Of a DNA stretch of 64,000 nt, positions 1 to 61,508 are shown in pieces. Source of the stretch: Firmicutes bacterium HGW-Firmicutes-9 (GTDB lineage: Bacteria; Bacillota; Clostridia; Christensenellales; CAG-138); assembly GCA_002841395.1 (NCBI GenBank), contig PGZM01000001.1:62001-126000 (forward strand), in the 5' to 3' direction. The translations under genes and the position numbers were made by a program. Each line of letters opens with the position of its first letter. Position 1 is the first letter of the stretch. A model generated the notes under the pieces. It saw only the letters and a list, made by a program, of their open reading frames with translations. It was not told the origin of the DNA and ran no database searches.

Positions 1-565
1 GTTTGTCCCCCGTGGAACCACTTGCGATGAAGCCTGTCGGGCTCCAACCTTCGAACGTATAGCCGTCTCTGGTCGGGTTGGCCAGCGTGATGTCAGCACT
101 CGAGATCGTATAGCTCGTGGGGTTAGAGGCATCATTGACGCCGCCGTTGAGCTCGTAGGTGATGTTGTACTCGATCGGTGCCGACCAGGAAGCCGTGAAG
201 GTCTTGTCACCGGTTGAGTTGTTCAAGATCTTATCGGAAGGCGACCAGTTCAGGAAATTGTATCCTGCGCGGGTCGGATCCTGTAGGGTGATCGTGGGAT
301 CATTATAGGTATAGGTCGACGGGTTACTCGGGTGATTGACACCGCCGTTGAGCTCGTAGGAGATGTTGTAACTCGTCAGTTCCCAACTCGCGGTAAAGCT
401 AAGATTTCCGGTCGTACCCTTTTCGATGGTCACATCGGAGGGAGTCCATCCGGTGAATGTATAACCCAATTTGGTCGGGTTCTGCAGCGTAAACGTCGGC
501 GTTACCTTTGTATAGGTAGTGGGGTTCGCCGGGTTGTTTGTACCACCGATTAAGTAGTAGGTGAT
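1..565 (-). repeat. Tandem InlB B-type repeat units (~67 codons each, at least two full and one partial)
   Basis: YYLIGGTNNPANPTTYTKVTPTFTLQNPTKLGYTFTGWTPSD.. / YELNGGVNHPSNPSTYTYNDPTITLQDPTRAGYNFLNWSPSD.. / YELNGGVNDASNPTSYTISSADITLANPTRDGYTFEGWSPTG.. Confidence 0.85.
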
Positions 566-1357
566 GTAGTACGTACGAGAATACACGAATGTGATCACGT
601 TGCTGCCGAAATCAAGGGTAATCGACTGAGGGCTGTTCGAGATCAGCGTGTAACCTGAAATCGAAATGGCAGAAGCAGTGACTGTTTGTCCAACGTGCCC
701 GTCGTCTTCGTAGGGGTCGTGCAGTTGTGCACCTGCGTCATCTACATAACGCACGGTGTAATCGACGTCGATACTATCCTTTAAATGGATGTAAACGTTG
801 TAGACCGTCGGATCGGAAGAGGACAAGAGCTGTACAGTTCCGTTGCCGGTCATCTGGCTGTTTGTGATAAATGAAGATTTTCCGGCGAGTGCAAATCCCG
901 TGTCTGTCTGCAAGAGATTGACAAGGGCTCTGTTGGTCACAGCCGAGTAGGCTGTAATCTTTTCGCTGGTCAGCGGGGACATCACATAATGCTGTAAGAG
1001 ATTGGAAGTGTTATTTCCAATATAGATCCAGATATGTAGTTCTACCGCTTTATAAACTGCGGTAACGGTCAAGTTGCTCGTCACGGCTGAGAAATCAGTG
1101 TCCCATCCGTCTGCAACGTAGCCATTCCGCTCGGGGTGTGCGGGTGCGGTGGCTGCCTGACCTTCCTCCACTGAAACAGTGGAAATAAACGTTCCATCAA
1201 AATCCTGGAACGTGACATCATAATATGTAGGAGACAGTACGGTGTCTCCACCTTCTCCTTCACCAACAGCGGCCAGCGCCTGTGTGGGGAACAGAGAGAA
1301 AACGAGCATAAAGCTAAGCACAACGCTAATAGCTTTTGTAAGACGTGACCCTTTCAT
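1..1357 (-). CDS. Secreted/cell-surface protein with InlB B-type (Flg_new / Listeria-Bacteroides) repeats, C-terminus truncated by window edge
   Basis: Reading minus from ATG at 1357: MKGSRLTKAISVVLSFMLVFSLFPTQALAAVGEGEGG... (signal peptide, AxA site), then YDVTFQDFDGTFISTVSVEEGQAATAPAHPERNGYVADGW and repeated YELNGGVN..NP..YT...TLxxPTRxGYxFxxWSPS units; open to base 1. GGAGG RBS just upstream. Absent from ORF track because it has no stop in the window. Confidence 0.9.
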   Translation of the reverse strand, partial: MKGSRLTKAISVVLSFMLVFSLFPTQALAAVGEGEGGDTVLSPTYYDVTFQDFDGTFISTVSVEEGQAATAPAHPERNGYVADGWDTDFSAVTSNLTVTAVYKAVELHIWIYIGNNTSNLLQHYVMSPLTSEKITAYSAVTNRALVNLLQTDTGFALAGKSSFITNSQMTGNGTVQLLSSSDPTVYNVYIHLKDSIDVDYTVRYVDDAGAQLHDPYEDDGHVGQTVTASAISISGYTLISNSPQSITLDFGSNVITFVYSRTYYITYYLIGGTNNPANPTTYTKVTPTFTLQNPTKLGYTFTGWTPSDVTIEKGTTGNLSFTASWELTSYNISYELNGGVNHPSNPSTYTYNDPTITLQDPTRAGYNFLNWSPSDKILNNSTGDKTFTASWSAPIEYNITYELNGGVNDASNPTSYTISSADITLANPTRDGYTFEGWSPTGFIASGSTGDK

Positions 1358-26106: not shown

Positions 26107-27318
26107 CTATTTGGTGTCGCCAAGACGCTTGACGAAATATGATCTGACCTGCGCCAGCGCCTCTTTTGCGCCGACGGCTGAAGGAGCCGTTCCCTGCGCA
26201 AGAGAGCCTCTGCCGCCGCCTTTTCCGCCGAGCGCCGCATTGACCGCGGGCATGAGCTCCGATACGTCGATTGGAAATCCTGCTCCGCTCGAGAGCACGT
26301 AAAACAGCCTGCCGTCTGTCTCGCTGAGCAACAGCGCGAGTGTCTTTTCGGCGGAGGACGACTGTGCGAGATCCTTCAGCCTTCCGGCATCCACACCGCT
26401 GACGAGCTGAGCCACCACGCGGTATTTGCCCGCTTGGGCTGCTGCCTGCAGAAACTCAGCCGACATATAGACGTTCAGCGATTTCGCGAGCTCGCGCTCG
26501 CTCTTTTTGAGCGCACCGAAATCGTCCGAAAGTTTTTTGACCGCGCCGGGCACCGCCTCCCGTTGGCAGGAGAAACGCCGCGCGATGGCGTCGAGGTCGT
26601 CGTGCTGCGCTCGGTGTAGTTTTAGCGCCCGCTCGCCACAGAAAAACGTGATGCGCGTGCCGCCCTTATAGCTACTGGCATCCGCTACGAAAATGGAGCC
26701 GATTTCGCCCGTTGTGTAGCAATGCGGCGCGCAACAGGTGCACATATCCGCGCCTTCTACGTGTACAATGCGGATCGGCGGCTGCAATCCTTCCGCGTGC
26801 TTTCGCAGCGGAAGCGCGGCAACCTCCTCCTCGCTTTCGTAAAACGTCGCCTGTACGGGTAGGTTTTTCCAAACGAAACGGTTTGCAAGCAGCTCCGCTT
26901 CTTTGATCTCTTCGCGGGAGACGGGTTTGGCAAAGTCGATAGTCGCATAGTCCAGCGCGAGATGGAAGCCGACGTTGCTCGCCTGAAATAGGTCGTAGAA
27001 CGAGAATGAAAGCAGGTGTTCGCCCGTGTGCTGCTGCATTAGATCAAACCGGCGCATCCAGTCGATAGCGCCAGTGACGCTTGCACCAACCGCGAGCGCG
27101 CGGTCTATGCGGTGGTAGATCTCGCCGTTCTCCTCGCGCACGTGGAGGACGTTTGCCTCGCCCAGTGTGCCAGTGTCGGAGGGTTGTCCGCCGCCTTCGG
27201 GGAAGAACACGGTCTGATCGAGCACAACGTCAAACTTGTCTTCGACTGCCGTGCAGGAGAGAACGGTGGATTGGGTTTCGGTTTGGTGGCTGTCTAGATC
27301 ATACAAACGCTTTGTCAT
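26107..27318 (-). CDS. AlaX-type alanyl-tRNA editing protein with DHHA1-like C-terminus
   Basis: FFPEGGGQPSDTG; QQHTGEHLLS (HxxxH); CTCCAPHCYTTGEIG; C-terminal GGKGGGRGSLAQG. Confidence 0.87.
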   Translation of the reverse strand: MTKRLYDLDSHQTETQSTVLSCTAVEDKFDVVLDQTVFFPEGGGQPSDTGTLGEANVLHVREENGEIYHRIDRALAVGASVTGAIDWMRRFDLMQQHTGEHLLSFSFYDLFQASNVGFHLALDYATIDFAKPVSREEIKEAELLANRFVWKNLPVQATFYESEEEVAALPLRKHAEGLQPPIRIVHVEGADMCTCCAPHCYTTGEIGSIFVADASSYKGGTRITFFCGERALKLHRAQHDDLDAIARRFSCQREAVPGAVKKLSDDFGALKKSERELAKSLNVYMSAEFLQAAAQAGKYRVVAQLVSGVDAGRLKDLAQSSSAEKTLALLLSETDGRLFYVLSSGAGFPIDVSELMPAVNAALGGKGGGRGSLAQGTAPSAVGAKEALAQVRSYFVKRLGDTK

Positions 27319-27348
27319 AGGTTACCTCAGCGATCAAAATTGTAGTCG

Positions 27349-27399
27349 TCAAATAAACGCAAACTGTTTTAAAACAAAGATAAAGAGAGACATCGTCAC
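27349..27399 (-). pseudogene. Duplicate 3' tail of AEC permease gene (17 codons: VTMSLFIFVLKQFAFI-stop)
   Basis: 43/51 nt identical to true gene end 27401-27451 (VTMFIFIFALKQFAFI-stop); the two copies are separated by one nucleotide. Confidence 0.85.
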
Positions 27400-27400
27400 G

Positions 27401-28339
27401 TTAAATAAACGCAAACTGTTTCAACGCAAAGATGAAGATAAACATTGTCACAATCGATAGCACGCTGGTCACGGCGACAAGCGTGCCCGCTAGTTCGTCG
27501 TCCGCCTGCATGCCGACCGCCATCGAATAGGTGACCATTGCGACCGGAGCCCCGAAGATAATCAGTGAAACGACGATGTGTTCACCGCGGAAACCCAGAA
27601 GCAGAAACGTGGCAACCATGATCAGCGGTATCAGAATGAGCCTAAGTAGAGATACCGCGAGAATCGCCGGGCGGTTCTTCTTCACAGCGGCAAACGAGAT
27701 AGTGCCGCCAAGCAGCACAAACGCGAACGGCGTTGTCGAAGCCGCGAGTGCGTCGATGGGTTTTTGCAAAACGGCGGGTAACTTGAGCTGGAGAAAATTC
27801 GCGAGAAAGCCCGCCAGGCACGCGATGATGACTGGATTCTTCAGAACCCGAAGGAGCACCTCGCCAAAGCGCACTTGCTCGCCGCGGTAGCGTTCCATGG
27901 CAACGACGGATAGCGTGTTAAACAGCGGAACGGTGAGCGAAACCGCGATCGACATCATGCCGAGATTGTCTTCGCCAAGCAGCGCCGCCGCAACCGCGAG
28001 GCCGAAGATCGCGTCGTTGGAGCGGAACACACCGAGAATCAGCACGCCGCGCCGGTTGTTCTCCTTGGAGAACACGGGCACGAGTAACGCAGTCAGCGCG
28101 TAGATGATCGCAATGCCGATTGCCATATAGAGCAAAAACGGCGTTGCAACCATCGCCTTGAGGTCAGCCGCCGCAATCGCGCGGAAGCACATCAGCGGCA
28201 GCGTAACGTAAAAGATGATCTTGTTTGCGTTTCGCATCAGATCTGTGGTTACGATATTGGTTTTGCGCAGCACGACGCCGATGATCATGTAGATCATCAG
28301 AGGCGCAACGACGCTGAACGATAAAAGTAAGTTTTCCAT
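27401..28339 (-). CDS. AEC (auxin efflux carrier) family transporter
   Basis: MIYMIIGVVLRKTNIVTTDLMRNANKIIFYVTLPLMCFRAIA..; multi-TM. Confidence 0.88.
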   Translation of the reverse strand: MENLLLSFSVVAPLMIYMIIGVVLRKTNIVTTDLMRNANKIIFYVTLPLMCFRAIAAADLKAMVATPFLLYMAIGIAIIYALTALLVPVFSKENNRRGVLILGVFRSNDAIFGLAVAAALLGEDNLGMMSIAVSLTVPLFNTLSVVAMERYRGEQVRFGEVLLRVLKNPVIIACLAGFLANFLQLKLPAVLQKPIDALAASTTPFAFVLLGGTISFAAVKKNRPAILAVSLLRLILIPLIMVATFLLLGFRGEHIVVSLIIFGAPVAMVTYSMAVGMQADDELAGTLVAVTSVLSIVTMFIFIFALKQFAFI

Positions 28340-61328: not shown

Positions 61329-61335
61329 CAAGTCA

Positions 61336-61349
61336 CTTAAACGCTTAAG
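61336..61349. promoter_or_regulatory. LacI-family-like operator O1
   Basis: CTTAAACGCTTAAG, near-palindrome centred on CG just downstream of the -10. Confidence 0.8.
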
Positions 61350-61445
61350 CGAATCTTTTTCATTTCTGTTCGTTCCTGCAAGATTCAAAACACGACAAAC
61401 AAAGATTGAAAAAACGAGACGGACGGTATAAAATGAATTTGCGAA

Positions 61446-61459
61446 CTTAAACGCTTAAG
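61446..61459. promoter_or_regulatory. LacI-family-like operator O2
   Basis: Identical CTTAAACGCTTAAG 110 bp downstream of O1. Confidence 0.8.
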
Positions 61460-61508
61460 GGTCACCGTTTCTTATCATGAATGGAAAGTTTAAAAGGAGG
61501 AAAGAATT

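Follow-up and report, generated by a model that had tools for sequence, protein, structure and literature searches.

A second, diverged gene tail behind an AEC-type permease gene, possibly the remnant of a displaced allele

How does an intact bacterial gene come to be followed by a second, diverged version of its own end? The case considered here lies in a 64,000-nt stretch of the genome of Firmicutes bacterium HGW-Firmicutes-9 (contig PGZM01000001.1, positions 62,001 to 126,000; hereafter the window), where a minus-strand gene of 312 amino acids (27401..28339) is trailed by a repeat of its final 16 codons with a separate stop codon. The encoded protein is a permease of the AEC type (auxin efflux carrier family), scoring above the gathering threshold of Pfam PF03547 (Mem_trans) across its whole length (E = 8.3e-27; 94.1 bits against a cut-off of 25.7; residues 9–303), while its match to TIGR00946 fell under that model's cut-off. 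The explanation preferred here, at a probability of roughly 0.52, is that the copy is a fossil of the former 3′ end of the permease gene, left behind when the resident allele was replaced by a related, unsampled one; a tandem duplication within the lineage is the main competitor.

The gene's own tail, termed copy U, is read directly from the sequence at 27401..27451 (minus strand) as GTGACAATG...TTTATT-TAA. It is separated by a single spacer base (27400..27400) from copy D (27349..27399, minus strand), which reads GTGACGATG...TTTATT-TGA and was delimited by repeat finding, the tail test and alignment. The two are identical at 43 of 51 nucleotides, with 8 differences and a period of 52, exactly as the first-pass annotation of this DNA had reported, and that annotation was equally right in calling several differences synonymous (4 of the 7 coding ones, the others being F/S, I/L and A/V) and in describing copy D as out of frame with the gene while keeping its own frame and TGA stop. 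Translation of copy D is not expected. The spacer base and the next base read CG, and CG likewise follows the stop of copy D, giving a 2-nt junction microhomology; the 52-bp unit lies head to tail, with no filler, and reaches 2 nt beyond the stop codon in both copies.

A chance origin of the copy is excluded. When the predicted gene tails of the window were each compared with the 250 bases downstream, the permease scored 63, against a maximum of 20 in shuffles and 25 for the next-best gene, and Tandem Repeats Finder placed its top-scoring array of the window here (27347-27451, period 52, score 154). The first-pass annotation had also implied a second duplicated tail elsewhere in the window; none was found, no other gene of the window convincingly passing the tail test. 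Two other repeats were noted in passing: a palindrome-like CTTAAGCGTTTAAG motif, resembling a LacI-type operator, occurs twice at a distance of 110 bp (61335-61366 and 61445-61476) ahead of an apparent lipoprotein gene on the plus strand, and at the left edge of the window (108-571) lie three diverged 62-nt repeats spaced by 201 nt, probably encoding 67-residue protein repeats.

The permease gene and its surroundings were compared with seven relatives in the same genus (G001–G007; the window genome is G000). Orthologues with 70–79% protein identity are present in all seven, as is the gene order of glg genes, permease and an AlaX-like gene, the last being the downstream neighbour in the window (26107..27318, minus strand), an AlaRS-like editing protein of 403 amino acids with tRNA_SAD and DHHA1 domains that is syntenic in all genus relatives. 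The distance from permease stop to next start is 24–64 nt in six relatives, 82 nt in the window genome and 148 nt in G001. On the other side of the permease, the gap to glgB in G007 holds a duplication with a 56-nt period (L047:2378-2432). A single permease tail is found in G002–G007, and G001 carries an independent and different duplication; the extra tail of the window genome is specific to its lineage.

Which of the two tails occupies the native position is indicated by what follows them. The 30-nt gap between the stop of copy D and the start of the next gene (27319..27348, minus strand) agrees at 27 of 30 aligned bases with the corresponding gap of G004, behind that genome's single tail, compared with at most 20/28 in the other relatives with a gap of similar length, and the G004 gap matches only the sequence that follows copy D. 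Copy D consequently sits in the native tail position with its native flank, and the additional 52 bp lie upstream of it. In sequence, copy D is closest to the tail of G004 (41/48, versus 37/48 for the gene's own tail), and reads MSLFIFVLKQFAFI, one residue away from the relatives' usual ending of approximately MFLFIFVLKQFAFI, whereas the gene's own MFIFIFALKQFAFI is two residues away. The expectation of the first-pass annotation that the copy would look like a relative's C-terminus is borne out in part. The annotation had named a strain-specific tandem duplication lacking any homologue match as the outcome that would overturn its reading; the insertion is indeed lineage-specific, yet the copy does match a homologue.

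The main alternative is a plain partial tandem duplication. Under this reading, seriously held and judged somewhat short of even odds, 52 bp spanning the stop codon would have been duplicated within the lineage by replication slippage or unequal exchange at the CG microhomology, at an age of about the split from G004; the first copy would have stayed the gene end while the second drifted. The exact head-to-tail unit, filler-free and running 2 nt beyond each of the two stops, is the pattern of plain slippage. The distribution of changes fits it less well. Polarised against the relatives, 5 of the eight differences are derived in the gene's own tail and 3 in copy D, so that it is the functional tail that has changed more and the non-coding one that is nearly ancestral, whereas duplication followed by unconstrained decay of the copy would leave the gene with about a quarter of the derived sites. 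At least 5 of 8 derived sites in the gene would then have a probability of 0.025–0.048 (dN/dS of 0.1–0.2 assumed), a nominal and uncorrected value from eight sites polarised by majority. Likewise, the two tails have diverged from each other (8/51) as far as copy D has from another species (7/48). Neither observation is decisive against duplication.

Displacement of an allele predicts a different descent for the body of the gene and for what surrounds it. G000 and G004 group together, at 96–100% support, in the trees built from the AlaX-like gene, from the glg genes and from all flanks; the permease tree joins them at 43/19 only, on long branches, so that their sisterhood is weakly recovered there and not rejected. 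The path between the two genomes measures 0.49 for the permease, compared with 0.27 for the AlaX-like gene and 0.17 for the glg genes. G004 is the nearest relative on most flanking genes: relative to the distance to other relatives, its distance to G000 is 0.68–0.92 in seven flanking genes and 1.04 (0.94–1.12) in the permease. Upstream of the gene, the 150 nt proximal to glgB are strongly G004-like (117/146; score 73 versus 25 for the next relative), and the 85 nt adjoining the permease start display no G004 affinity (score 11 versus 10). Taken with the gap behind copy D, the glgB side and the distance ratios place G004 affinity on both sides of the permease and its loss across the gene up to the tail junction. 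This would be suggestive of a different descent for the body, and suggestive only, because a fast-evolving gene could lose affinity too, and the permease is fast-evolving in both the G000 and the G004 lineages. That the permease alone lacks G004 affinity is hence another point against a tandem duplication, again not a decisive one. As for the annotation's reading of a displaced paralogue or allele, the G004-like copy and the gene's loss of the affinity that its flanks show speak for it, and the weak body tree and the possibility of tandem duplication leave it short of established. The samples involved are tiny, and the findings favour displacement rather than prove it.

If an allele was displaced, the events might have run as follows. 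A related, unsampled lineage would have supplied an allele that replaced the body and the 3′ end of the resident gene, joined on one side by homologous pairing within or before the gene. The junction on the other side would have been illegitimate, using a microhomology of about 2 nt, and would have fallen immediately behind the incoming stop and some 51 nt upstream of the resident one. The last 16 resident codons and the native intergenic sequence would have remained as an untranslated remnant. The CG microhomology is weak and equally expected under slippage, and a search of the relatives and of genome contigs, covering few genomes of the genus, found no closer or donor allele. ComEC (PF03772) is present in G000 and 6 of the 7 relatives; it is also found in most other genera, and so does not discriminate for natural transformation. 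Ku-dependent end joining was set aside, as no Ku gene was detected in the eight genus genomes, which are incomplete assemblies, with a positive control in B. subtilis.

Other origins for the second tail were weighed and found much less probable. A functional element between the permease and AlaX-like genes, be it an RNA structure, a regulator or a translated peptide, could account for the intact reading frame and stop of copy D, but copy D is out of frame and missing from G002–G007, has no match in Rfam, folds no better than its shuffles (z = 0.15) and contains no terminator-like site; the tail copy appears to be without evident function, and this explanation is regarded as highly improbable. 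An assembly artefact, by which two strain variants of one stretch were joined in tandem, comes to mind in that several of the genus relatives are metagenome assemblies and the window genome may be one too. It is nevertheless considered improbable, given that a divergence of 16% exceeds ordinary strain variation, that native flanks continue on both sides, and that tail copies occur in several genomes of the genus, one of them common to G000 and G004. A diversity-generating retroelement was rejected on the substitution pattern, only 1 of the 8 differences falling at an A of copy D, and an integration scar from tyrosine recombinase att sites on the lack of any element, with just one base between the tails.

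Tail copies are not confined to the permease. Stretches of G000 and its relatives were scanned for copies anchored on stop codons, and a wider scan was added. In G000, four credible tail copies were found in 764 kb (678 genes), where 0.2 were expected from shuffled pairs. The stop-anchored search returned two in 157 genes of G005 and none in 320 genes of G037, from another family of the order, and the wider scan gave two further copies in G003. Gene heads copied upstream of starts did not clearly outnumber those in shuffled pairs after paralogues, operator-like sequences and ORF-calling artefacts had been set aside, and no permease tail copy was present outside the genus in the 14 AEC loci scored.

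The gene for DNA gyrase subunit GyrB has tail copies in 3 of 7 readable genus genomes (G005, G007 and G000) versus 0 of 25 genomes of other genera. In G005 (L072:18032-19999) the gyrB tail is identical to its copy at 48 of 54 positions with all coding differences synonymous; in G007 (L125) 7 of 8 coding differences are synonymous, and in G000 (L122) the copy has decayed. The gyrB gene of G004 (L126) has an apparent frameshift about 20 codons before its end, either an assembly error or real. Other copies in G000 follow a ribulose-phosphate 3-epimerase-like gene (L052:19066-19710) and a transporter-like gene, both named by resemblance, the latter copy being exact (24/24 nt) and absent from G004. 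The transporter-like gene (L054:19-396) comes directly after an oxidase-like gene (L054:474-1823) that also has a tail copy, common to G000 and G004; the pair lies at G000:C1, ~166000-167900. Beyond G000, a copy lies behind an nrdR-like gene of G005 (L079:2929-3426), the G001 permease (L046:2374-3312) ends in an independent 77-bp tandem duplication of the tail and 42 nt of spacer, and an rlmI-like methyltransferase gene bears three tail copies with a 67-nt unit, the last decayed, in G003 (L172:4394-5620) and a tandem tail array with a 72-nt unit in G005 (L074:9037-10428).

These cases fall into two kinds, distinguished by the sequence behind the stop codon. Behind the G001 permease (30/42) and the rlmI-like genes, the copy is followed by a repeat of the spacer that follows the stop, none of 500 shuffles doing as well, and because of this repeat they are taken to be plain tandem duplications. 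Such clear cases, one of them at the very same gene, lend weight to a tandem origin in the window as well, as do copy ages across the genus that span identical to decayed. The spacer-repeat comparison has no power for the window permease, whose spacer is one base, and its 52-bp register does fit a tandem. The second kind comprises six copies, behind gyrB in G005, G007 and G000 and behind the epimerase-, transporter- and oxidase-like genes of G000. Here the copies resemble the gene ends up to the stop codon and no further, the spacer being unrepeated even where the tails are as alike as those of the transporter-like gene and G005 gyrB, so plain tandem duplication does not explain them; two alleles with unrelated flanks might be expected to leave this pattern.

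Pooled over the eight polarisable cases of the genus, the derived sites number 17 in the genes' own tails and 32 in the copies, which is compatible with duplication and decay (P = 0.07–0.21), the window permease and G007 gyrB being the two cases that depart from this pattern. Overall, somewhat more of the differences are synonymous than expected (28/52, P ~0.01). The recurrence of the same genes in several species suggests either hot spots or old copies that were repeatedly lost. A broader interpretation, that gene-end exchange bounded by stop codons is unusually frequent in this genus, with diverged alleles replacing orthologous ends, those of housekeeping genes like gyrB included, at the same genes repeatedly across species and old tails left as fossils, is at present thought unlikely.

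Displaced 3′ ends have precedents, and in the open-access literature they are described for Rhs and T6SS loci; searches there turned up no account of core genes with tail fossils. In Vibrio, T6SS effectors have been displaced with retention of 3′ remnants, for which homology-facilitated illegitimate recombination was proposed (PMC5361080). As would be the case for the permease, homology anchors one side of the incoming gene, and the old 3′ part is shifted downstream; the Vibrio examples, however, involve immunity genes in their entirety and effectors of unrelated types, under selection, whereas the permease involves an ortholog and a 51-nt remnant with no evident use. Displacement of Rhs C-termini leaves arrays of dissociated tips (PMC2935791), in which an old C-terminal coding piece similarly remains downstream of the new one, but the tips are laterally acquired and differing alternatives, while the permease tails are orthologous and almost identical in the protein they encode. 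A survey of E. coli has also proposed that small variable segments arise by homology-assisted illegitimate recombination (PMC2884548). The small scale, the lack of a mobile element and the replacement of an ancestral segment are in common; that survey is within a species, and fossils of gene tails are not described in the parts of it consulted. Replication slippage producing a partial tandem duplication shares the head-to-tail unit and the short microhomology, and differs in that the derived-site asymmetry of the permease runs opposite to it and in that several cases of the genus have an unrepeated spacer.

On its own, the permease tail is a small evolutionary scar of an ordinary kind, to which recurrence at other gene ends of the genus adds interest. 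A dated remnant of a former gene end can reveal an allele swap and its junction site directly, without trees. If recurrence in the genus is confirmed, tail fossils would provide a simple sequence signature by which events in core genes, be they illegitimate allele replacements or gene-end duplications, could be counted, and, should gene-end exchange prove true, they would constitute a readable record of allele replacement between species.
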